Shown one piece after another: positions 8,372 to 20,321 of a stretch of 64,000 bases of DNA. Made by a program: the position numbers and the translations under genes. The stretch is from a bacterium (lineage in GTDB: Bacteria > Vulcanimicrobiota > Vulcanimicrobiia > Vulcanimicrobiales > Vulcanimicrobiaceae). Where the stretch lies: assembly GCA_028869385.1 (NCBI GenBank), contig JAGWSR010000066.1:1-64000 (forward strand). Reading direction: 5' to 3'. The stretch's first letter is position 1. Each line of letters opens with the position of its first letter. Below the pieces are notes generated by a model, which had not been told where the DNA came from, did not search any database, and saw only the letters and a list, made by a program, of their open reading frames with translations.

Positions 8372-9970
8372 CTAGGCGCCGAGATCGACTGGCGTATCCG
8401 ATCGAAACAGGTTCACACGGCCGCCGCGCAACTGCCTGCGCAGCCGCCGGCGCTCCCCTTTGCGCCTACGACGCAAGCGAGCCGCGGCGCGGCGTGGAAG
8501 GTCTACGTCCCTCTCCGCGTCAACCGACAGGTCGATAAGGCGTTGAATTCGCGAATCAACGCGAAGCGGGGCGGTGCGCATAGCTGCCCATAGCGCTTGC
8601 ATCCGGTCAATAGCGAGTTGATTTTCTCTAATCGAGTTGTAGAGCTGCTGCAGCTGACTGGTAGGGCTGAACGCGAAGGTACCCAGCAAGCGTTCTAGAT
8701 GTTTTCCGGGCGAGAGCGCAAGGCTGCTTTGGGCAATCTCGGACAAATAGCTCGGGGCGGGCCACGCTGGCAATTGTATGCGTTGCAACTCTAGCCACGA
8801 CGGGTTTTTCGGGTAGTTGCTGCGGAGTCCCAGTGCTGAGGCGATCGACGGTCTGCCACCCGCAATAGAGTTCCAAAGGTCTTCATTCTTGCGACTTAGC
8901 GCCCCGAAATCACGCATCGACCACAAGCCAGCCTGCTCTAGCACTGAACGTGGACCGAGGCCAGCCGCCAGCTTGTTCTGCAGATTGGCAATCAATTTGC
9001 CTAGCGAAGCTACGCCAGAGTTAGCATTGGCAAGCTGCTCGACGTTCAATGTCGGCAAAGCAAGCCCCAGCGTTCGCTGCAGTCTCTCGAACGCTGGAAC
9101 CTGTATTGCAAATCTATTAGCCAATGCTTCCGCGGCAAGCGCTTGCGCCAGAAAACTCGAATATGTGAACGCAGGCCAAGCATATGTAGCCGTGCGCTTC
9201 GCGCTCTCATATTGAGGAACGAGTGTCGGTCCAAAAATAAGAGCGACTCGCTGCCCCGCTTCTGCAAACATCTCGAATACTAGAGCCGGATGGGTTCCCT
9301 CAAGGTTCTTGCCATCGACCCTCCACCAATCTTTCTTGCGTTCATTAGTCACTAAGAAAATTGGTGCTCTGCGCACGCGCGCGATCGCAATCAGCTCGAA
9401 CCAAATTATCAGGTCGTTAAATCTTAGGTCTAGTGACTTCGTCGCATCGGTAAAACCCGGCGGAATAGAACGTGCATAGCGGAAAGGGGCCGTGCGTCGG
9501 ATTCGGTCGTACTCTGCCGCGGGCAACGGCGCGCATGTTCGTGAGTCGACGGTCTCGAGGACTTGATGAAGGCGCGCCGCCGCCGCGCTCCTCCAAGTCG
9601 CTTCGTAGCGCGCTTTGATCGTCGCGAACTCGTTTTGGATCGATGAACGTTCCGATTCTCCAATACCGCGAGACACGGAGCGCACGGTAAAGGTTATACC
9701 ATTGCCGGACCGACGAACAGCCTCTTCAACTTTTGCTGCTCCAAGTCTGCGGACCTCACCAGCAACCGTCGCCGGAACAACGAGGCGGTCGCCGAAGTTG
9801 TCGAATATCTTCTTCGTCTCTTGGAGCGATAGGCTATCGCTGTCAATGACTGACAAGAGAAATGAACTATCGACAGCTAAGACCGCGCTCGAACCTGCGA
9901 GCGTCATCAGTTCACGTGCCGACAAACCCTTGACGGATAATGGCGTTCCGTTGTGCTCTACCCGCAGCAT
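8372..9970 (-). CDS. PIN_8-type nuclease-like protein
   Basis: Protein of 532 residues. The first 230 match the PIN-like domain PIN_8, a predicted RNase fold found in many defence loci. Visible are Asp34 in AVLAVDSSFLL, Glu72 in VVPATVAGEVRR, the IPPGFTDATKS segment, Asp186 in RFNDLIIWFELIAIA, and the diagnostic VTNERKKDWWRV at 207-218. The remaining 300 residues are helical, unrecognised, and may sense the trigger or bind a partner. It is the last gene of a minus-strand group; 213 bp separate it from the HEPN protein gene, so it may have its own promoter. Base composition is lower in GC than chromosomal genes here. Confidence 0.8.
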   Translation of the reverse strand: MLRVEHNGTPLSVKGLSARELMTLAGSSAVLAVDSSFLLSVIDSDSLSLQETKKIFDNFGDRLVVPATVAGEVRRLGAAKVEEAVRRSGNGITFTVRSVSRGIGESERSSIQNEFATIKARYEATWRSAAAARLHQVLETVDSRTCAPLPAAEYDRIRRTAPFRYARSIPPGFTDATKSLDLRFNDLIIWFELIAIARVRRAPIFLVTNERKKDWWRVDGKNLEGTHPALVFEMFAEAGQRVALIFGPTLVPQYESAKRTATYAWPAFTYSSFLAQALAAEALANRFAIQVPAFERLQRTLGLALPTLNVEQLANANSGVASLGKLIANLQNKLAAGLGPRSVLEQAGLWSMRDFGALSRKNEDLWNSIAGGRPSIASALGLRSNYPKNPSWLELQRIQLPAWPAPSYLSEIAQSSLALSPGKHLERLLGTFAFSPTSQLQQLYNSIRENQLAIDRMQALWAAMRTAPLRVDSRIQRLIDLSVDAERDVDLPRRAAARLRRRRKGERRRLRRQLRGGRVNLFRSDTPVDLGA

Positions 9971-10183
9971 AAGGGCAATCCGATTCGTACCTAGCGCCTT
10001 GACGCCCTAGTTCAGGCGAACTAGCGAACCTTATATTAAAGTCAAAGGCGAATGGTTCGAAGGTCCCATTGAGCGCCACGAATTCCAGCCCTTATCGCAG
10101 ATAAGAGCCTTGTGGCAACTCCGTCAAAGTGCGGCGCGATTGCCCAAACTCTCGCGGGTTGGCGCTCCACGAAGCTGGCGGAG

Positions 10184-11134
10184 CTATTCATTGTTATCGT
10201 CATCGTAAGGTGGCGGACTATGAAGGGCTTCGTTTACGTCATCCTCTGTAAACAATCCAAAGAAATCAGCGGCAGAGCGCGTAGAAGTCGTTTTGAATGG
10301 AGTACCGAGTCCGCATGCCGCAAGCTTGGCAAGACCGGAAACTTTAAAGCCGCAAGCAATGCACTCGAACGTCGAAGGGACGACAGTCTGCTTTTGAATG
10401 ATCTCATCATCTTCGGATATCTCAGTGGAAACGTCGCCCTGGGGTGTGCCGCGAAGCAAGCCCACTTGCTGACATGCTGGGCACGCAGCGCGGTGGCCTT
10501 TATCCTTCGACGCCCATACCTCGGCTAATCGCGCTGCCTGTTCTCTGTCATCAGGGGTCTTGTCCATCCAGACGGCCCTAAATTGCGCGACGTCCTGTCG
10601 GACCGATTTTGCTGCCGCGTCTTGCGACGCTGCGATCAGTTCTTCCGCAAGGTCTGGATCCTTGAAGAAATCAGCGAGACCAAGTCCCATGTGAGCCAGG
10701 AGCGCTTTGCACGCCATATAGTACTTAGGAAGCCAATCGCCCGCGCTTTCAAACGCGCTGGTGCCGCTGTGCAACTCTGAGTTTCTTCGCTCTATATGGT
10801 GGACACAAAAACTCTGTGATGACGAAAAGCCGGGGACCAGTACGGCGAGAATTTGGAAAATCTCAGCTATTCCGCGCGATCGAGGCACGAAGTCAGTCGT
10901 TCGCGGAGGAAACCCAAGGGCATGGTAGGTGTTCTGCCAATTGTTCTTGTCGGCCAACAACGTTGGTGACACGCGGGCCAGGGCAGCTCTCGCGAGAAAT
11001 TCCAAACTTAAGCCAGAGAACAGCCCGTACTCCCAATCGCTCCGGTCATGTTCGTGCATCTTCTGAGCGTAGAGCAAAGCTTTATTGAGTAGGGCTTCCT
11101 TAGACCAGCCATGTTCACTTGGAGTTGCCGCCAC
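10184..11134 (-). CDS. HEPN-like protein with zinc ribbon
   Basis: Protein of 316 residues starting with GTG, which overlaps the stop of the preceding gene by one base. The helical N-terminal part contains Arg117-x4-His122 (ERRNSELHSG), the catalytic signature of HEPN ribonucleases, inside a helix pair typical of that fold (WEYGLFSGLSLEFLARAAL). A zinc ribbon follows with CPAC (217-220) and CIAC (257-260). The C-terminus is acidic (PPPYDDDNNE). Established: HEPN proteins are frequent RNase effectors of toxin-antitoxin and phage defence systems. Inference: this is the toxic or effector part of the cassette. The HEPN call rests on the motif and helices only. Confidence 0.6.
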   Translation of the reverse strand: MAATPSEHGWSKEALLNKALLYAQKMHEHDRSDWEYGLFSGLSLEFLARAALARVSPTLLADKNNWQNTYHALGFPPRTTDFVPRSRGIAEIFQILAVLVPGFSSSQSFCVHHIERRNSELHSGTSAFESAGDWLPKYYMACKALLAHMGLGLADFFKDPDLAEELIAASQDAAAKSVRQDVAQFRAVWMDKTPDDREQAARLAEVWASKDKGHRAACPACQQVGLLRGTPQGDVSTEISEDDEIIQKQTVVPSTFECIACGFKVSGLAKLAACGLGTPFKTTSTRSAADFFGLFTEDDVNEALHSPPPYDDDNNE

Positions 11135-11793
11135 TACTTCACCTCGTCTAGGTAGATTCGTTGAATAAGCCTACCTCTATCTTCGTTCGACACGGCCTCT
11201 CTGCCATGTACTGCGCGCCAATTATCCACGAGAATGGCGTCATCGATGTCTCTCAGAACAACTCTCTCGCTTTCGATCTGAGCCACACGATCGTCCCAGC
11301 TTTTGCAGAGTTCTGCGGCGACCGCATTCATAGGGCTCAGGGCAAGAGGGTCCCAACGAAAGAGCTCTGTATCATCGTGCGTTGCTAGTGTTCGCCTGAG
11401 CGATGAGAACCCTGTCTGTTCGCTTTGAACGCGGAAGACCGCTCTCGACATGCTAGCACGGGGAATCGCCGAAAGGATTTGATTCAAGGCCAAAACGGTA
11501 GTAGCCACGGCAGAGCCGCTTACGCATCGGAGGAGTAAAAAGCGCGGAGGAACAGCCCAGCGTGCGAGATCCGTATGCAGCGGGAACGGCGCAAGGCCAA
11601 ACTGCCCACTGTAGGTGTTTTTCCTAGCGGTCGCGGTGTCGCTCGGTCGAAGGTTCTTCACCTCAATCCTCACGACTCGCAGCTCCGAAGCACAAAATGG
11701 CTCAAGGTGGATGGCCGCGTCAAAAATCGAATCGCCTGGACGCCACCTCGGTAAGAATAAGAACCCTCGCTCAGCTAGTCTGGGATCCACCAA
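11134..11793 (-). CDS. TauD-like Fe(II)/2-oxoglutarate oxygenase
   Basis: Protein of 219 residues with the arrangement of TauD/clavaminate synthase-type oxygenases: the metal-binding HTD motif (His73, Asp75) in the stretch FPLHTDLARWAVPPRFLLL, and the distal His197 with the co-substrate Arg199 in VDNWRAVHGRE. An in-frame TGA lies just before TTG 11793, so the start is TTG 11793 or GTG 11790, with GAGG upstream. The N-terminus is short for the family (usual length 260-300). The TAGTG overlap couples it to the HEPN gene, which is an unexpected partner for such an enzyme. The substrate is unknown; it could act on nucleic acid, a protein or a small molecule. Confidence 0.7.
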   Translation of the reverse strand: MVDPRLAERGFLFLPRWRPGDSIFDAAIHLEPFCASELRVVRIEVKNLRPSDTATARKNTYSGQFGLAPFPLHTDLARWAVPPRFLLLRCVSGSAVATTVLALNQILSAIPRASMSRAVFRVQSEQTGFSSLRRTLATHDDTELFRWDPLALSPMNAVAAELCKSWDDRVAQIESERVVLRDIDDAILVDNWRAVHGREAVSNEDRGRLIQRIYLDEVK

Positions 11794-12604: not shown

Positions 12605-13588
12605 ATGGCGGTTGCATCGAGGGTTCACAAGAACGGTAGCCTTGTCAAAAAGGATTCCGCAACCAAGAAGATTCAGCAGGCGGAGAAGCGTTACACAGCG
12701 AGCATTGCCCCTGCAAATCGGGGGTTCGTGGATCCCGGATTCGCTGCTGCGCTACGAGCTGTCGAAACCGCGATAGGGCGGCCTCTCTGGCTACTCGTCC
12801 AAGACGATGAGACTGAAGGTCCATTCGCCCAATTTAACGAGATCGGGCCACGCGTCGCTGATGCATTCTTCAATGCGCGCGCCGATCTTGAAAGCGGAAC
12901 GTCTCCCGTTCTGCTGATTCATTCAAGTGGTGGATTCGGTAAGGACGCGTATCGAATTGCGCGGCTTTTTCAAAAGCAATGCGACGGCTTTACCGCAATC
13001 GTTCCGCGGCGTGCAAAAAGCGCGGCTACCCTTCTTGCTTTAGGCGCGCAGGGCATTATTCTCGGGCCGTATGCCGAGCTTGGTCCTTTAGATGCACAAA
13101 TGGTCGATTATGATCGCGAGATTCGGATGTCGGCACTCGATGAGGTGAAGGCCTTAGAGCGTCTACACGCATCTTCGCTTGAAGCGGTCGACCAACTCGT
13201 TATTGCATTGATCGCGCGAACGCAAAAGAAGCTCGACACCCTTCTCCCCGTGGCACTGAACTTCGTTGCCGAGACGGTGAAGCCGCTTGTCGAAAAAATA
13301 GATACGATTCATTTTACGCAAATGTCTCGGACGTTGAAGGAGGCCGAGGAATACGCAAAGCGACTCCTATACCTGAACTATCAAAAGGCCCGAGCCGACA
13401 CGATCGCAAACCAACTAGTCGAGACATATCCGACTCACGGCTTCATGATTGATTTTGAAGAGGCCCGTCGGCTGGGAATAAAGGTTTCGGAGCCTAAGGA
13501 CGGACTAGCCGAGGCCTTGAATGCTTTGATACCTCACATTCGAGGAACGGTTATCGGCAGACTTGAGGAGGTCCAGGATGACGACTAA
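12605..13588 (+). CDS. SDH-type Clp-fold serine protease
   Basis: Protein of 327 residues of the serine dehydrogenase proteinase family (SDH_protease), related to ClpP/SppA. Expected features are present: the SSGG oxyanion segment (107-110, IHSSGGFGKDAYRIA), the nucleophile Ser139 in RRAKSAATLLALGA, and Asp163 in ELGPLDAQ. The C-terminal half is helical and usually mediates oligomerisation. There is no signal peptide, so it is cytosolic or membrane-peripheral. Members are often found in accessory and defence islands. The downstream 67-aa ORF overlaps its end by 11 bp, which indicates a two-gene unit. Confidence 0.85.
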   Translation: MAVASRVHKNGSLVKKDSATKKIQQAEKRYTASIAPANRGFVDPGFAAALRAVETAIGRPLWLLVQDDETEGPFAQFNEIGPRVADAFFNARADLESGTSPVLLIHSSGGFGKDAYRIARLFQKQCDGFTAIVPRRAKSAATLLALGAQGIILGPYAELGPLDAQMVDYDREIRMSALDEVKALERLHASSLEAVDQLVIALIARTQKKLDTLLPVALNFVAETVKPLVEKIDTIHFTQMSRTLKEAEEYAKRLLYLNYQKARADTIANQLVETYPTHGFMIDFEEARRLGIKVSEPKDGLAEALNALIPHIRGTVIGRLEEVQDDD

Positions 13589-13781
13589 AGGGACCGCTCT
13601 GGATGGAACGCGGAGTCTCGTCGAAAGCGCGATGCGCCTCTCGCGCTTAGACCGCGCCAGCAGTTGGGAGCATGTAGCGGCGATCGTTCGCAACCACTCC
13701 ATCGATCGAACCGACGAAGCGGATTCATCTATGGAAGATGAGATAAAAGTTGAAAGTCGCGGTGTTTCGGTAACGCCTTAG
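13578..13781 (+). CDS. Small protein coupled to SDH protease
   Basis: Hypothetical 67-residue protein. GAGGAGG ends about 7 bp before ATG 13578, and the gene overlaps the protease stop in ATGACGACTAA, so it is translationally coupled. The sequence has one predicted helix (TRSLVESAMRLSRLD) and an acidic second half. It is not a known family. It may be an adaptor, inhibitor or substrate of the protease. Confidence 0.6.
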   Translation: MTTKGTALDGTRSLVESAMRLSRLDRASSWEHVAAIVRNHSIDRTDEADSSMEDEIKVESRGVSVTP

Positions 13782-14302
13782 TGCGGAATGTGAAAACCAA
13801 GATTCACGAGTCGAAACTGCATCGCGGAGTCACTCACCCCGAACTTCCTGGCCATTTTCGCTATTGCGGAATCACTGAGGCCATGCGCAGCCTTGAGGCG
13901 ATCACGAACTTCCTCAGTCGGCATTAGCAATGCTGCTGCGAACTGGTTCGCTTCCGTCTCCTCGCGTTCCGTGGCAAAGCCAGCCGTAGGCGTTCGAGCA
14001 TTTATTCGTACAGATGCGTCAACCAGTAATGGACGCCCCGGATGCATTACGAGATGCCCGATCTCGTGCGCGATCGTGAACCGTTTACGGACTTCGGCAT
14101 TTGCTTGATTTACAGCGATTATCGTCTTATCGGCCTCTCTAATTAAAAGGCCTGAGACGTCGTTGTCATTTTCGAAATCGTGCTCGACAACAATGCAACC
14201 GAGATCTTTCGCGAGCTGCTTTACATCCACTGGAATTCCGCAGTTGTGCGCTTGCAGCAGCTCTTTCGCCGCGCGCTCAGCCGCAAAGGTCGCCCTAGCC
14301 AC
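13778..14302 (-). CDS. ImmA/IrrE-type metallopeptidase
   Basis: Protein of 174 residues with the zinc protease motif HEIGH (79-83) in FTIAHEIGHLVMHPG and a downstream Glu-rich helix (EREETEANQFAAALLMP), the standard layout of the ImmA/IrrE family. Such proteases cleave a cognate XRE repressor, inducing the genes it silences. The gene starts with GTG and overlaps the XRE gene by 8 bp. A similar HTH/metallopeptidase pair (CapH/CapP) is known to control CBASS operons after DNA damage, which makes this pair the likely switch of the divergent ubiquitin-like operon. Confidence 0.88.
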   Translation of the reverse strand: MARATFAAERAAKELLQAHNCGIPVDVKQLAKDLGCIVVEHDFENDNDVSGLLIREADKTIIAVNQANAEVRKRFTIAHEIGHLVMHPGRPLLVDASVRINARTPTAGFATEREETEANQFAAALLMPTEEVRDRLKAAHGLSDSAIAKMARKFGVSDSAMQFRLVNLGFHIPH

Positions 14303-14612
14303 GAGTGCTGTGCTTTACAATCTGCCGGGCGATGGTGCCATAACGCCCCTGCGTCTCGTTTAGCGTGGGCATATCGTCTTCTATTTGAACAAGATCAGTT
14401 GGGCTCGCGTTCAGCACACGGCATAGCTTGACGAGTAGTGGCACAGAAACGGCCTGCTGGCCGGACTCGATGTTCGTGATGGAAGTGCGCTCGAGGCCAA
14501 CAGCAGCAGCGAGCTGACCTTGGGTGAGCTTTTCCCTCGTGCGTAGTCCTTTAAGGGCTTCGCCCAGCCGGCGATTCACCTCAGCCGATTCCGGGAGACT
14601 CACGTTACTCAT
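14295..14612 (-). CDS. XRE-family repressor
   Basis: DNA-binding protein of about 105 residues from ATG 14612; a start at 14633 would place the operator-like repeat inside the gene. The Cro/C1-type helix-turn-helix is clear (LTQGQLAAAVGLERTSITNI, ending in ESGQQAVSVPLLVKL). It is divergent from the multi-ubiquitin operon and translationally coupled to the ImmA gene. Inverted repeats GTCA-N7-TGAC and AGTCA-N12-TGACT in the shared intergenic region are the likely operators for both directions. Confidence 0.88.
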   Translation of the reverse strand: MSNVSLPESAEVNRRLGEALKGLRTREKLTQGQLAAAVGLERTSITNIESGQQAVSVPLLVKLCRVLNASPTDLVQIEDDMPTLNETQGRYGTIARQIVKHSTRG

Positions 14613-14615
14613 GCG

Positions 14616-14694
14616 AGTCAATATTACTGACATCCGATCGGCCCGTCAAGTGCGATCAGGCGGCGATGTAGGAGTCAGCGATAATCACGTGACT
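14616..14694. promoter_or_regulatory. Operator-like inverted repeats
   Basis: Two sites share the half-site GTCA: GTCA-ATATTAC-TGAC at 14617-14631, just before the XRE start, and AGTCA-N12-TGACT at 14673-14694, just before the -35 box of the ubiquitin-like operon. Their positions suit an autoregulated repressor that also controls the divergent operon. Confidence 0.45.
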
Positions 14695-14698
14695 TTGC

Positions 14699-14728
14699 TT
14701 GACATTTTTGCGGTTCGGCTGTTATCGT
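14699..14728 (+). promoter_or_regulatory. Promoter of ubiquitin-like operon
   Basis: A perfect -35 TTGACA at 14699-14704 with TATCGT at 14723-14728 (18-bp spacing) lies 40 bp before the GTG start of the multi-ubiquitin gene and directly after an inverted repeat. It resembles a sigma-70 promoter under repressor control. Confidence 0.5.
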
Positions 14729-14767
14729 TGGCGAGCAGCGCTGTGGTGCGCAATGGAGGTCTTCGAA

Positions 14768-15307
14768 GTGAGCCAGGAGTTGAATTCGGAACCCGAGCAG
14801 CAGGCGGCTGGCGCCGCAAAGGGCATCATCGTCCAGATCAACGGCGAAAGCGTCTCGTTCGACGCGAAGCAAATCACAGGCAGCGAGATCAAGCAGGCCG
14901 CCGTTATCCAGGGCGCTCGCATCAAACTCGACTACGCACTAGCGGCGAGACGGGGCCATGTTTGGGAGTGGATCGGCGATGAGGAGCCTGTCGATCTTCA
15001 AGAGTGCGACCGCTTTTTGGCGATAGAGGCGCTTGAGCGCGAAGATGGGCCGCCCTGCGGATGCGAGCGACCTCGCACCGAGATCACGATCAAAGTGAAT
15101 CGGAAGCCTGTAATCATGCAGCGCCACGTGGCGACCGGTGCGCAGATCAAGGCGGCGGCGATCACGCAGGGCGTCAACATCAAGCCGGATTACGTCTTGA
15201 GCGCCAAGGAGCCTGACGGAAAGTGGGAAGTTGTTCCGGATGATCGCTGGTTGCGTCTCCACGACTGCGAGCAGTTCATGGCGGTGAGCCCAGAGGAGCA
15301 CGCATGA
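14768..15307 (+). CDS. Multi-ubiquitin (tandem beta-grasp) protein
   Basis: Protein of 179 residues with two tandem ubiquitin-like beta-grasp repeats of the Multi_ubiq type, at roughly 18-95 and 104-175. The repeats align well: TGSEIKQAAVIQGARIKLDY in the first against TGAQIKAAAITQGVNIKPDY in the second, each followed by a W-containing strand and an aromatic, acidic end (DLQECDRFLAIE; RLHDCEQFMAVS). GTG 14768 has GGAGG at 14755-14759; ATG 14753 is the alternative. No diglycine is seen at the C-terminus (PEEHA), so any conjugation would need processing by the JAMM protease in this operon or uses another terminus. The stop overlaps the E2-like gene by 4 bp. Confidence 0.85.
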   Translation: MSQELNSEPEQQAAGAAKGIIVQINGESVSFDAKQITGSEIKQAAVIQGARIKLDYALAARRGHVWEWIGDEEPVDLQECDRFLAIEALEREDGPPCGCERPRTEITIKVNRKPVIMQRHVATGAQIKAAAITQGVNIKPDYVLSAKEPDGKWEVVPDDRWLRLHDCEQFMAVSPEEHA

Positions 15308-15687
15308 ACCTGACTGACACGGTCGCCATCGCCATCCGAGAGCTTCAGGACCAGTTCGGAGCAACGCACGTAAGCTACGATGATGATGGATCCGGCGGTG
15401 CATACGTGCGGATCGACAATATCGAGCTCCCCGCGCCCTACAATTCTCCTACCTGGCTTGCATTTCACATCCCTTTTTGCATACCGAGCGCGCTGATCTA
15501 TCCGTTTTTCGTGCGCCATGATCTTCGCACGGATGCTTTTACGCACGTCGCGGTACGCGAGGCTAGCTGGCGCGCGACGCCCGCGACGCAAATTTCACTT
15601 AAGCCGAAAAATGCATCGGATCCCGAACTCGAAACGGCCGTTCAGAGAGCGATCAAGGTAATCGCGTGGCTAAAGGCCGCAGCATGA
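15304..15687 (+). CDS. E2-like protein (Prok-E2_E type)
   Basis: Protein of 127 residues, matched by context and fold-like pattern to the prokaryotic E2 family E that accompanies multi-ubiquitin proteins: LAFHIPFCIPSALIYPFFVR resembles the central strands and YP element of E2s, and the terminal helix is AVQRAIKVIAWLKAA. It has a single cysteine, Cys59, located before the YP element instead of after it, so a canonical catalytic cysteine is not evident. It is coupled by ATGA overlaps to both neighbours. The role is either an unusual transfer enzyme or a scaffold for the E1. Confidence 0.65.
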   Translation: MNLTDTVAIAIRELQDQFGATHVSYDDDGSGGAYVRIDNIELPAPYNSPTWLAFHIPFCIPSALIYPFFVRHDLRTDAFTHVAVREASWRATPATQISLKPKNASDPELETAVQRAIKVIAWLKAAA

Positions 15688-17066
15688 GCAGGATCCTGAT
15701 CCGAATCTCGGCTGCGGATCACGCGAAGCTCATGCGGCACCTTTTTCCAGGTGACGCGCTCGAACACGCCGCGGTAATGGCCGCGTCAGCGATCAATCAC
15801 GGGGATAAACGCATACTTCTCGTTCGCGAGGTTTTTCTCGCCAAAGACGGCGTGGATCATCTCGTGGGCCCCGCAGGCAAGCTCGTACTCGCCGCTCCAT
15901 TCGTCACTGAGAAGGCCGACTATTGTGCTGAGAATGGTCTCGTCTATCTCTCCGTACACAATCACGCCGGTACTGATCAGGTTAGCTTTTCCGCGACGGA
16001 TATTAGGGCTCATGAGCAACTCTATCCGACCCTTCTGCAGATCACGAACCAACCGGTCGGAGGACTCGTCTTCGCGAAGGCGGCTGTCGCTGGCGACATT
16101 TGGTCACCAGCAGAGCCGCGAGTCCCGCTCACTTCATACGTCGTGGCTTCACTTGCGCGTACTGAGCTCCGCGGCTCCCCTCGACGGGCCGCCGGAGTTG
16201 ATTCGACCCGTCACCGCCAAGTGCTGTTCCTCGGAGAGCGTGGACAAGCATTGCTGCGAGAACTCAAGGTCGGCGTGATCGGGGCCGGTGGTGCCGGCTC
16301 AATCATTGTCGAGTTGCTCGCCCGACTCGGGGTCGGAAACGTCGTCGTCGTCGATCCTGATCGCATTGAGGAGTCTAACTTCTCTCGTGTCCTCGGCAGC
16401 CGGAAACGTGACTACCGCCCGTTCTTTTGGAGTAAGCCGGCTAGAAAAGTGGATATCTCGAAGCGCGCTTACATAAATGCGAATCCTCGGGGCGCGATCG
16501 AATGTATCTACGACGATTTCCGCCGGCCATCAGTCGTAGCCCGCTTCATAGATTGCGACTATCTCGTGCTCGCAGCCGATCCTCCAAGCGTAAAGCTCCT
16601 CTTTAATCAGATATGCTTCCAGTATCTGATCCCCGGAGTCGCCGTCGGAGCGCGTGTCTTGGTTGAGCGGAACAGCGGTGATGTTTCCCAGGCGACAAGC
16701 AGCGTACGTCTTGTCGGTCCCGGTAGTGCATGTCTCTGGTGCAATGGCTTTATTACGCCAGGGATGCTTGCAGAAGAGGCCGCGGCGCCGCAGCAACGTA
16801 ACGCTCAGCGTTATATCGATGACCGCGATGTTCATGCCCCGAGTGTCGTGACTCTCAATGCTCAAGCAGCAAGCCACGCGATGAATCTGCTTCTGTTTGG
16901 CATGACTGGCATAGGACAACCACCGAACCACGCGTTCACCGTATTTGACGCTCTCGATTCATCCGTGAAAGAGATGAGGGCGACTCCATCTCGTTTGAAT
17001 TGCCCGAACTGCATGGGGCGTCACTCGCGCGGATCCAGCATTCCCCTGACGACGATTGCACGCTGA
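15684..17066 (+). CDS. JAMM protease-E1 (ThiF) fusion
   Basis: Protein of 460 residues. The N-terminal 145 form a JAB/JAMM isopeptidase: Glu27, then His92-x-His94 (VHNHAG), Ser103 and Asp106. The spacing between the second His and Ser is eight, one more than canonical. The C-terminal part is a ThiF/E1 adenylyltransferase with GAGGAG (200-205), an acidic strand end (VVVDPDRIEESNFSR, Asp224, Asn232, Arg235), Asp299, and two CxxC pairs (CLWC 350-353; CPNC 440-443) for zinc. It would adenylate the ubiquitin-like protein and, through JAMM, mature or deconjugate it. No catalytic cysteine could be assigned with certainty. ATG 15684 overlaps the E2-like stop. Confidence 0.88.
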   Translation: MSRILIRISAADHAKLMRHLFPGDALEHAAVMAASAINHGDKRILLVREVFLAKDGVDHLVGPAGKLVLAAPFVTEKADYCAENGLVYLSVHNHAGTDQVSFSATDIRAHEQLYPTLLQITNQPVGGLVFAKAAVAGDIWSPAEPRVPLTSYVVASLARTELRGSPRRAAGVDSTRHRQVLFLGERGQALLRELKVGVIGAGGAGSIIVELLARLGVGNVVVVDPDRIEESNFSRVLGSRKRDYRPFFWSKPARKVDISKRAYINANPRGAIECIYDDFRRPSVVARFIDCDYLVLAADPPSVKLLFNQICFQYLIPGVAVGARVLVERNSGDVSQATSSVRLVGPGSACLWCNGFITPGMLAEEAAAPQQRNAQRYIDDRDVHAPSVVTLNAQAASHAMNLLLFGMTGIGQPPNHAFTVFDALDSSVKEMRATPSRLNCPNCMGRHSRGSSIPLTTIAR

Positions 17067-17082
17067 AGGAGCCAACGGCACA

Positions 17083-17475
17083 ATGACCCAGATCAGCTTG
17101 GAGCAACGGATAGAGATCGCGAGCCGGCTCGCGGAGGCCACGCGTCAACTTGCATTGAGCGGCAGAATCCTGCTCTTCTCCACCATTTCTTCCCTCGCCA
17201 TTGGCTGCGTGATCCTCGCTGCGAGCATACTCGCCGCGGTCCATGCAAGCAAAGCAGCGGATGAGCACATTGCACGTGCAAACACCGAACTTATCGGACT
17301 TCAAAGGACTATCACAAGCCTAAGCAATGACGCACGCCGCCTCGATCGCGGCGTTGGGCACGTACATTTGCTCGAGGACGGAAACGGGTACCTTGTATGG
17401 ATGACGCCCGGCTATGATCTCCGTAAGGTTCCTTGCAGGAACGATTGCTACCGCATCGATGAGGCGTCGCGATGA
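17083..17475 (+). CDS. One-TM protein of ubiquitin-like operon
   Basis: Protein of 130 residues with a short N-terminal helix, one strong transmembrane segment at about 30-50 (LLFSTISSLAIGCVILAASI), a following coiled helix (HIARANTELIGLQRTITSLS) and a C-terminal region with a CRNDC pair. GAAGGAG lies at 17065-17071, 16 bp after the E1 stop. It overlaps the next gene by 4 bp. No family was recognised. Its place in the operon suggests a membrane anchor or effector, a role not obvious in other multi-ubiquitin loci. Confidence 0.6.
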   Translation: MTQISLEQRIEIASRLAEATRQLALSGRILLFSTISSLAIGCVILAASILAAVHASKAADEHIARANTELIGLQRTITSLSNDARRLDRGVGHVHLLEDGNGYLVWMTPGYDLRKVPCRNDCYRIDEASR

Positions 17476-18941
17476 TGACCTTGGCCAAAGCAAATGCTCG
17501 TTTTTCGGCAAAGGTCAACGAGATCAATAGCATCACGAAATCAGCTCTCGATCTAGCCGTAACAAACGCACAGGCTTTACTCGGTCGCTTGCATCCCGCA
17601 GACACGTCTTGGCTCACCAAGTGGGCTTTAGGCAAAGAGCTAAGTTTCATTGAGGAAACGGAACGTCTCGCGCACGAAAATCTTGAAAGGGCGCGCACCC
17701 AACTATCAGAGTGGAATGCCCTATCACCGAAGGAACAATCCTTACGTGTTGATGAGCAAGCCGCTACGGCGCTTCGCATTGAGAGTCCGGAGGTTATGCA
17801 AACTCTCGATGAATACCACCGTGGACGAAAGGCCCTGCTTGCGGCAGCAAAATCGATTTCGACGAAGTTTAGCGAGCCGCATGAAGCGTTCTTGAGCGGC
17901 CATCTGGAGGCATCGCTCTTCCCCGATGTCTTCACTGATGATGACGGGGCCGAGTATCGTCGCCTCTACGTCGAGCCTCCTGCGGGCCTTGGGCAGTATT
18001 TCGTAACGCCCAATTCAGCTACGTTTCCTGATGGTTCCGGGACGGGTGTCGCCCGGCTTAATGAGACCAATGGCTTTGGTTCAATTTGGCGTGATGATTC
18101 CTTCCAGTTTGTGTATGGCGAAAATGCTTACGAGCCTGCGAGCAAGGCTGAGTCGGCGTTAAACGCTCGCTTTTCTGAGGTTATCAGGCAGCGCGCGCAA
18201 CGGCTAGATCAATGGCAAGAGAATCTCATTTCAGCCGATATCATCGATGTCTTTGAGAAGCATTCTAGCTTTGTCATCTCTGTCAATGGGATGATTTACC
18301 ATGTCGTACTTACTGTTTTCAAGCAGCAGCATAAAGCTGAATCGTTGCACGGCGACCTCTGCGTCGTGGTGGAATCGCGCAGCGACGAGCAAAACGTGAT
18401 TGGTGCAGCGTATATGGAAGCCAAGAAAGTGGATCTAGTGTCTAAGCGCTTTCGGGCTATTAAGAAGGCTCAGCTCGACCGAATTGCCGAGAACACATTG
18501 AATCCCAAGCTGTTGCTATATTCTCCGGCGCCGCTTTCCTCGGACTGGTGGGCAGCGACGCTGGATCTCCAAGACTACCGCTCGCAGGCAGCGTTGGCAC
18601 GCGATGCGACCTTGGGTCTCAACGGCCGACCTCTTGGTACGCAATTCGTACGGCGATACTTTATCGGTAAAGATTTGGATACTCGGAAAGCAGCAGTGAC
18701 CGACGCAGTACGCGTGGCCGCGAAGTGTACGCGCGGACTTTACGTCTCGATTGGAGTCGCAGGAAGTGAGTTGCGGTCCCAGGAGCTGTGCCTGCAAATA
18801 CCCCCAAGAGTGCGATACTTGATGGCGCAGGCTTTTGGAGAAAGACTAGAGCCTTCACTTGAGAGGGAGTTTCGGCGCGATTTGCCCGGCCGTGGCCGTA
18901 GTGGCCGCAGTGGTCGAGATTACGGTGGGCTCGAGCTCTAG
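17472..18941 (+). CDS. Unknown 489-aa protein of ubiquitin-like operon
   Basis: Large cytosolic protein of 489 residues with no recognised domain. The first 140 residues are helical (coiled stretch FIEETERLAHENLERARTQL). The middle has mixed alpha/beta sequence (HSSFVISVNGMIYHVVLTVF; GDLCVVVESRSDEQNVIGAA). The end is Arg/Gly-rich (PGRGRSGRSGRDYGGLEL). It starts at ATGATG overlapping the TM protein stop, so it is the last cistron of the five-gene operon. It could be the conjugation target, an E3-like adaptor or the effector. The base composition matches the rest of the island. Confidence 0.65.
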   Translation: MMTLAKANARFSAKVNEINSITKSALDLAVTNAQALLGRLHPADTSWLTKWALGKELSFIEETERLAHENLERARTQLSEWNALSPKEQSLRVDEQAATALRIESPEVMQTLDEYHRGRKALLAAAKSISTKFSEPHEAFLSGHLEASLFPDVFTDDDGAEYRRLYVEPPAGLGQYFVTPNSATFPDGSGTGVARLNETNGFGSIWRDDSFQFVYGENAYEPASKAESALNARFSEVIRQRAQRLDQWQENLISADIIDVFEKHSSFVISVNGMIYHVVLTVFKQQHKAESLHGDLCVVVESRSDEQNVIGAAYMEAKKVDLVSKRFRAIKKAQLDRIAENTLNPKLLLYSPAPLSSDWWAATLDLQDYRSQAALARDATLGLNGRPLGTQFVRRYFIGKDLDTRKAAVTDAVRVAAKCTRGLYVSIGVAGSELRSQELCLQIPPRVRYLMAQAFGERLEPSLEREFRRDLPGRGRSGRSGRDYGGLEL

Positions 18942-18993: not shown

Positions 18994-20321
18994 CGATACT
19001 AGGCAGCGCTACCAGCATCACCGCGGAAAAATCTTGGCATTATGCCGAGTTCTGCTGTCGCCATCACGAGACACTGAAGGTTGTGGCAAAGGACCTTTGC
19101 CAAGAGTTCGTTGATTTGACCATGCTTTGATCTTGCCGCTACGCGGTCGCCGAATTGCTGCTTGATCATAAACATCACCGTCTCGACATTCGACCTTTGG
19201 TGATAGCGGCTGAGTACGTCGGGGTCTTCTGCTCTGAACGCGTGAAACATTTGCTCCATAAATCTGTTCCCTCGCCCCGTCATTCCATCTTTAGGCGGGA
19301 TGAGAGGAACCAGCCCGAGCTTCGTCAGGACGTCGTAATTCGGCTTTCCGGTGTATGCCTTGTCGGCAACGACATCGCACAGTTGAACTCTCTTCATCGA
19401 GCCCCGGATCAAGCCTGGGAGCTGAGCGGTGTCTGCGCCATCGCTTTCGGTGACGACCGCGTCTGTGACGATGTGAGTCGCGGTATCGACTGCGATATGT
19501 AGCTTGATGTAATCCCGTTTGCGAGTGCGATGAAAGCGCACATCATACCATGTTGAGGAAGTGGAGGTTGTAAATCCACTAGAGTCGACAGCGATCGTGC
19601 GTTGGCCGAGATTTGCAAGGGGCGAGGAGCTCTCTCGGATCAGTTCTCTTAGGATAGCTCCGACTGCTGGGCGGCGCATGAAAGCCGACAGCGTGTTGAA
19701 GTGATAGCGCCGCGAAACACGCTGCGTCGTTACCCAGCGCTGCAGCACATCACCACAAAAATCGCGCCCTGATTCTCTGACGTAGACGCGCATGACACTC
19801 GCAAATAGAAGCTCCGAGATCGGCGCCGGCGGATGGCCACGCGTGGGATCTGGGTCTTCGATGACGCTTGCTAGCTGGAGTAAGAGTTCGGCTGCGCAGC
19901 TCTCGACCCAAGGCTTCGTCGCGTTATAGGTTTCCCAGTCACGCTTCCGCGGGAGCCCGTTCTGAGGAACGTCTGGCAGGTTGTCCTCATGACCTTCGAA
20001 GTACTCGACTGCGAAGATGTGTTTGCAGGGCTCGCGGCGATCGGCGAAGTCCGCACAATTGCACACAAACCGTCCTAAAACGTATCGGACGGTATAATAC
20101 GCGCCGTCTACGCTTTGAGACGTCACACTCCATTCTTTTCGTCGCGATGCTTTGCGAACGCCCTGACTTAAATAAATCTGGTATCCACGTTGCCGACGCG
20201 TGACTACGGCGCGCCCTGTCGTTTCTTCACGCGCAGAGTTATCGTTTCCCCAAGGAAACGAGAGTTGATTGTCGTCCATGGAAATGGGCTCCTAGGCCCT
20301 CGACTCCCGCACTTCGGCGTG
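18983..20321 (-). mobile_element. IS with SWIM-DDE transposase, ends approximate
   Basis: The transposase gene is flanked by TGCGGGAG at 18983-18990 and its inverse CTCCCGCA at 20314-20321, each followed inward by a CTAGG. These are the best candidates for terminal repeats, but they are short, the left one sits in the hairpin, and I found no target duplication. Boundaries are therefore tentative. Confidence 0.4.
18999..20279 (-). CDS. DDE transposase with N-terminal SWIM zinc finger
   Basis: Transposase of 426 residues. The SWIM finger FVCNCADFADRREPCKHI (Cys73, Cys75, Cys85, His87) precedes a DDE_Tnp_1-like catalytic core with Asp232 (TIAVDSSGF), Asp306 (DVVADKAYTG) and Glu366 (RSNVETVMFMIK). 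The frame is intact from ATG to stop, so the element may be active. A SWIM finger at the N-terminus of an IS5/IS4-like transposase is a recognised but less common layout. It lies inside the comM island and is probably a later arrival. Confidence 0.85.
   Translation of the reverse strand: MDDNQLSFPWGNDNSAREETTGRAVVTRRQRGYQIYLSQGVRKASRRKEWSVTSQSVDGAYYTVRYVLGRFVCNCADFADRREPCKHIFAVEYFEGHEDNLPDVPQNGLPRKRDWETYNATKPWVESCAAELLLQLASVIEDPDPTRGHPPAPISELLFASVMRVYVRESGRDFCGDVLQRWVTTQRVSRRYHFNTLSAFMRRPAVGAILRELIRESSSPLANLGQRTIAVDSSGFTTSTSSTWYDVRFHRTRKRDYIKLHIAVDTATHIVTDAVVTESDGADTAQLPGLIRGSMKRVQLCDVVADKAYTGKPNYDVLTKLGLVPLIPPKDGMTGRGNRFMEQMFHAFRAEDPDVLSRYHQRSNVETVMFMIKQQFGDRVAARSKHGQINELLAKVLCHNLQCLVMATAELGIMPRFFRGDAGSAA

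Follow-up and report, generated by a model that had tools for sequence, protein, structure and literature searches.

In the HEPN/MNT system the antitoxin chemically modifies its HEPN ribonuclease (RNase) (PMC7641770), and in Hha/TomB an oxygen-dependent antitoxin oxidizes the toxin (PMC5155140). Here we describe a two-gene locus in which a small TauD-like Fe(II)/2-oxoglutarate oxygenase is coupled to a HEPN-like protein with a zinc ribbon. It lies in a stretch of 64,000 nucleotides (contig JAGWSR010000066.1 of assembly GCA_028869385.1, positions 1 to 64,000, from a bacterium of the family Vulcanimicrobiaceae), the whole of which is called the window. The pairing of the two genes is far beyond chance and extends over at least seven phyla. 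We tentatively read the locus as a toxin-antitoxin (type VII-like) or abortive-infection module: the oxygenase would restrain the HEPN RNase by a modification dependent on O2 and 2-oxoglutarate. The two genes in the window are:

11134-11793, reverse strand: TauD-like Fe(II)/2-oxoglutarate oxygenase, 219 aa, TTG start, first gene of the pair
10184-11134, reverse strand: HEPN-like/zinc-ribbon protein, 316 aa, GTG start, second gene of the pair

The TAG stop codon of the oxygenase gene and the GTG start codon of the HEPN gene have one base in common, as the initial annotation had proposed. That annotation took absence of the pair elsewhere as a refutation, and the pair was found in 85 further loci by a survey of species genomes (84,980), plasmids and viral contigs in which the HEPN protein alone was the query. 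The species genomes, one for each of 84,980 species, were scanned with one peptide pattern taken from HEPN and gave 69 HEPN loci. Five more came from viral contigs, each with the oxygenase, while neither protein had a match in 50,697 phage records. On plasmids, 44 records were matched by the HEPN protein (tblastn), and the small oxygenase was directly upstream in all of the first 11 loci inspected; some plasmid gene tables omit the oxygenase, yet it is present upstream of HEPN. Counting the window, an oxygenase recognized by its profile lies immediately upstream on the same strand in 86 of 86 HEPN loci, and the two reading frames overlap in 74 of these (4 nt in 50, 8 nt in 20). Seven more plasmid loci (L175-L181) are all paired, among them one from Streptomyces (Actinomycetota) that was reached by a second plasmid search with a divergent member. 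The hosts belong to Pseudomonadota (alpha, beta, gamma and Magnetococcales), Acidobacteriota, Verrucomicrobiota, Planctomycetota, Bacillota (Paenibacillus), Actinomycetota and the phylum of the window.

The pairing was also seen from the oxygenase side. Each of 25 genomes has one strong oxygenase match (E 7e-54 or better, 25/25), always paired with HEPN, and the next TauD-like match in the same genomes is no better than 5e-9, with a longer reading frame and no HEPN gene. Evenly drawn sets of 385 alphaproteobacterial and 369 gammaproteobacterial genomes contain the oxygenase only rarely (about 1%), and the strong matches are nearly all paired. Unpaired are L125, where an intact oxygenase adjoins a JmjC-like gene and HEPN is absent, and L121, a truncated oxygenase remnant, also without HEPN. 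The alphaproteobacterial draw holds five intact HEPN genes, all five paired, and one degraded copy. Furthermore, pairwise distances of the two proteins are strongly correlated (mirror-tree r=0.91, against a maximum of 0.21 in 2000 permutations). That the two proteins act together is shown by their obligate pairing, the overlap of their genes and their joint evolution.

No intact HEPN gene without the oxygenase was found among the loci surveyed. The HEPN gene is broken beside an intact oxygenase in four loci, by a frameshift (L003 and L176), an insertion (L073) or a nonsense mutation (L077). The reverse, a broken oxygenase beside an intact HEPN gene, was found in none, and both genes are broken in L064. 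We considered this asymmetry as proof of toxicity and dropped it, the cases being too few.

The TauD-like assignment made in the initial annotation is supported by Pfam TauD (2.1e-8, above the cut-off) and by fold and profile matches. The AlphaFold (AF2) model of the oxygenase is confident (predicted local distance difference test, pLDDT, 93.5; predicted template modeling score, pTM, 0.89), and the protein has a double-stranded beta-helix fold with an HxD/E...H iron triad. The best Foldseek matches in PDB are KDO1 and clavaminate synthase (4.6e-10), and the oxygenase profile matches CAS1 at 5e-16. Both kinds of search agree on a clavaminate-synthase-like (CSL) enzyme, with the lysine 3-hydroxylase KDO1, clavaminate synthase, asparagine oxygenase, VioC and NapI as relatives. 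The following elements of its active site were found:

11569-11577, reverse strand: HTD, residues 73-75, first two iron ligands, aligned with HTE of CAS1, KDO1 and NapI
11200-11226, reverse strand: DNWRAVHGR, residues 190-198, conserved segment with the distal iron ligand His196
11158-11172, reverse strand: R208 and R212, predicted 2-oxoglutarate- and carboxylate-binding arginines, invariant in 47 sequences

HxD or HxE is present in every locus with a complete TauD gene. N191, H196 and R198 are invariant in 47 oxygenase sequences, and D190 and W192 are nearly so. R208 and R212 are four residues apart, the same spacing as R328 and R332 of KDO1, which bind 2-oxoglutarate and the substrate carboxylate (PMC6224419). 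Conservation of R212 alone is no proof of a carboxylate substrate, since the second arginine touches 2-oxoglutarate too in KDO1 and KDO5. The position of KDO1 E145, which binds the substrate alpha-amine in most relatives, falls in a three-residue insertion without a counterpart in our enzyme according to the profile alignment. CAS1 likewise lacks the P2 Gln/Glu. In this alignment our enzyme also lacks the lid insertion and about 100 N-terminal residues of the CSL relatives. The active site is predicted to be open, with carboxylate binding kept and no hold on a free alpha-amine. Such a site would suit the C-terminus of a peptide or some other macromolecular substrate.

Oxygenase genes also occur outside the pair. 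An intact member of the family without HEPN (L131:465-2832) lies 490 bp upstream of a JmjC-like oxygenase gene, where the same enzyme possibly works on its own. A small TauD of 208 aa that is more distant (L123:279-3419) is found between a nitroreductase-like gene and an ABC transporter, surroundings that are probably a peptide-biosynthesis cluster.

The HEPN protein is covered by no family in Pfam, NCBIfam, PADLOC or PHROGs. Its AlphaFold (AF2) model (pLDDT 93.1, pTM 0.80) combines a helical domain and a helical hairpin with a zinc ribbon, which includes a long beta hairpin, and ends in a flexible tail. Three conserved elements were found:

10769-10786, reverse strand: RNSELH, residues 117-122, HEPN-type Rx4H motif at the end of helix 104-123
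10352-10483, reverse strand: zinc ribbon CPAC (218-221)...CIAC (258-261), the two halves joined by a long beta hairpin
10187-10207, reverse strand: C-terminal tail YDDDNNE; tails in the family are YGND or NNE plus 0-1 residue

R117, N118, E120 and H122 are invariant in 47 HEPN members, where the motif reads RNxE[LI]H (RRNSELHTG in the L036 protein). In the model the motif R-[NDH]-x3-5-H of the HEPN superfamily is present at a helix end in a helical bundle. The four zinc-ribbon cysteines are also invariant in the 47 members, and the hairpin is formed by strands E224-239 and E244-257 (DSSP). Matches to known HEPN proteins are weak. Sub-threshold Pfam matches over the motif were HEPN_Apea (0.0054) and HEPN_Cthe2314 (0.054 and 0.18), and weak Foldseek matches were Csm6 (probability 0.51) and HepT (0.15), none with E<1. 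A Foldseek comparison of the model with viral structures gave no match. Profile-profile comparison with DUF4145 and HepT gave no match either, a comparison in which two accepted HEPN families likewise missed each other. Since homology is weak, the HEPN assignment relies on the RNxE[LI]H motif, which is invariant, and on where this motif sits in the model. The Rx4H motif and zinc ribbon of the initial annotation stand in a confident helical model, while kinship with HEPN families is faint (0.0054 being the best Pfam HEPN match). The protein is a predicted endoribonuclease. Its tail is conserved nearly up to the final residue, in two forms: clade B has YGND (Y 27/27, G 26/27, N 27/27, D 25/27), and clade A has NNE followed by 0-1 residue, with N at -3 in 17 of 20. 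The Streptomyces protein shares only about 25% identity with the divergent member used as query, and it too ends in YGND.

The pair is carried on mobile DNA. Of the 44 plasmids that carry HEPN, 32 are predicted to be conjugative. Genes of Gabija, AbiV, AbiH, AbiEi/AbiEii, SIR2, VapBC, BrnTA, restriction-modification, ABC-three-component and TrlF systems are among its neighbors, and no consistent metabolic neighbors were detected in the loci surveyed. A TrlF-family ATPase gene adjoins the pair on several unrelated plasmids as a recurrent optional neighbor, upstream in L009:5232-9834, L178:2328-6918 and L180:2316-6918 and downstream in L012 and L177. Large clinical or sewage plasmids carry the pair in Acinetobacter wuhouensis (L007) and Pseudomonas aeruginosa (L012 and L177), and the Acinetobacter plasmid has OXA-58 and macrolide-resistance genes at most 9 kb from it. 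In the phylum of the window the HEPN gene is present in one of 149 genomes, that of the window itself; we rejected vertical inheritance within the phylum, and the gene was therefore probably acquired horizontally.

In the mechanism that we tentatively favor, the two overlapping genes would form a mobile two-component module. The product of the second would be a toxin, a HEPN-type endoribonuclease that carries a zinc ribbon in its C-terminal part, and the product of the first a small Fe(II)/2-oxoglutarate oxygenase controlling this toxin. With O2, 2-oxoglutarate and Fe(II) present, the oxygenase would hydroxylate the HEPN protein and leave the RNase inactive or unstable, the conserved acidic, Asn-containing C-terminal tail being the candidate site. 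If a phage or stress halted the oxygenase or prevented its renewal, the RNase would be freed and would cut cellular RNA. The direction of control, with the oxygenase restraining HEPN, is suggested by the absence of intact HEPN genes without the oxygenase, the existence of oxygenases without HEPN and the four-to-none decay of HEPN genes. The gene order, with the oxygenase first as is usual for antitoxins, also counts for restraint. A more specific version makes the oxygenase a protein C-terminal hydroxylase whose active site the HEPN tail (...YGND or ...NNE) would enter, giving an RNase toxin switched by O2 and 2-oxoglutarate; this is possible, and on balance doubtful. Several points weigh against restraint by modification. 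The substrates of the closest known oxygenases are not proteins but free amino acids or small derivatives of these. Neither sequence nor Foldseek gives more than weak HEPN homology, and no single comparison is significant. The last tail residue varies in clade A, which weakens the tail as substrate. In addition, the intact oxygenase of L125 is able to exist without HEPN, and the four-to-none asymmetry is not significant given the gene lengths and is only suggestive.

That the pair is instead a defense sensor and effector, with the oxygenase activating the HEPN RNase, seems to us fairly unlikely. Activation might occur through a hydroxylated amino-acid derivative sensed by the HEPN/zinc-ribbon protein, or through modification of HEPN after infection. 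This would agree with the hydroxylation of free amino acids by the closest oxygenase relatives, with R212 as the counterpart of the arginine that binds the substrate carboxylate, and with loci that sit among defense genes. However, the enzyme lacks both the alpha-amine position (KDO1 E145) and the lid that would have to close over a free amino acid, and an activator-only role predicts that harmless HEPN genes without the oxygenase are common, while none was seen. Restraint could also be achieved by binding, in a type II-like toxin-antitoxin pair where the oxygenase fold serves as the antitoxin and catalysis is secondary. The tight operon with the oxygenase first, plasmid carriage and joint evolution are consistent with such a pair, but all catalytic and 2-oxoglutarate-binding residues are invariant over seven phyla, which is unexpected for a mere scaffold, and we consider it unlikely. 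If the oxygenase modified an RNA, a tRNA or a translation factor targeted by the HEPN RNase, as a self-protection like restriction-modification on RNA, this would account both for the zinc ribbon, an element that commonly binds nucleic acids, and for the obligate pairing, and an open, lidless active site could take a macromolecule. This is decidedly unlikely, as the oxygenase is not close to known nucleic-acid oxygenases and its profile and fold matches are amino-acid hydroxylases. The initial annotation had offered three roles for the oxygenase; modification of a nucleic acid is the least supported of them because the closest relatives hydroxylate amino acids, and modification of the nuclease and sensing of O2 or 2-oxoglutarate are the best remaining candidates. 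A plain metabolic role for the pair, with a "HEPN" protein that is no nuclease and whose motif is a coincidence, would suit the weak HEPN detection but is very improbable in view of the RNxE[LI]H motif, which is invariant and placed at the end of a helix, the four invariant zinc cysteines, the mobile, patchy distribution and neighbors that are defense genes and not consistently metabolic.

A third gene follows the pair after a gap of 213 bp:

8372-9970, reverse strand: PIN_8 nuclease-like gene, 532 aa, Pfam PIN_8 3.2e-26

The three genes (8372-11793, all on the reverse strand) lie where the initial annotation placed them. That annotation joined them in one oxygenase-HEPN-PIN_8 cassette, which we reject because PIN_8 is unlinked to the pair elsewhere. 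PIN_8 relatives on plasmids do not stand beside the pair and adjoin restriction, SIR2 and other defense-type genes; PIN_8 is also not among the annotated neighbors of the plasmid pairs, nor among the most frequent families near the pair. It is a separate island gene outside the conserved module. About 300 residues after its PIN domain match no family, and the plasmid relatives align to the PIN part only.

The three genes are part of a low-GC island at about 8.3-26 kb of the window (about 54-58% G+C, with flanks mostly of 60-68%). Beside the pair there is a ubiquitin-like conjugation island (12605-18941), which contains a ClpP-like SDH protease, an ImmA/IrrE peptidase with a helix-turn-helix regulator, a Multi_ubiq protein (14699-15307), a fusion of a JAMM motif (HNHx7SxxD) with a ThiF E1 (15666-17066), a 127-aa open reading frame that may be E2-like and a 489-aa protein matching no assigned family. 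Also inside the low-GC island is a transposase-like gene (18999-20279) that has a zinc-finger-like segment, CxCxxF...CxH, at its N-terminus.

The pair is not described in Pfam, NCBIfam or PADLOC, and the PADLOC 2.0 system profiles match none of the three window proteins. The HEPN survey of Anantharaman 2013 shares the architecture of HEPN with a zinc ribbon and makes no mention of TauD, dioxygenase, oxygenase or oxoglutarate. In the open-access literature we found no paper on TauD-HEPN or TauD in defense, and none in which hydroxylation by a 2-oxoglutarate oxygenase silences a toxin, although work in subscription journals or preprints is possible. If the more specific version, hydroxylation of the HEPN tail, is true, the pair would be a prokaryotic counterpart of hypoxia-inducible factor (HIF)-type oxygen sensing by hydroxylation, in toxin-antitoxin or anti-phage control. 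The favored mechanism would bring hydroxylation to the few known chemistries by which antitoxin enzymes silence toxins and would couple oxygen, iron and central carbon metabolism with a switch for cell death or dormancy, with the conserved HEPN tail as a concrete substrate hypothesis.

Among known systems, the CSL oxygenases (KDO1, CAS1, AsnO, VioC, NapI) share with our enzyme the fold, the HxD/E...H iron site and two arginines four residues apart. They have about 320-360 aa, compared with 219 aa here, and the module enzyme, which is obligately paired with HEPN, has neither the lid insertion nor the alpha-amine position and lacks about 100 residues at the N-terminus. Hha/TomB resembles our proposal in an antitoxin action that needs oxygen and a toxin that is oxidized (PMC5155140); however, TomB is small and helical, works without iron or 2-oxoglutarate, and Hha/TomB has no homology to either module protein. 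The type VII system HEPN/MNT (HepT/MntA) also has an RN-x3-H HEPN protein controlled by an enzyme from the adjacent gene (PMC7641770), a control that is presumed in our pair. The enzyme is a nucleotidyltransferase there and an oxygenase here, and our HEPN protein has in addition a zinc ribbon and a conserved tail. Sequence homology between HepT and our HEPN protein was not detected, in a comparison that missed an accepted HEPN pair too. As in type VII operons, two genes encode an enzyme and its partner, co-inherited and mobile. By its anatomy and distribution, the pair would be a toxin-antitoxin or abortive-infection unit and a candidate member of type VII.

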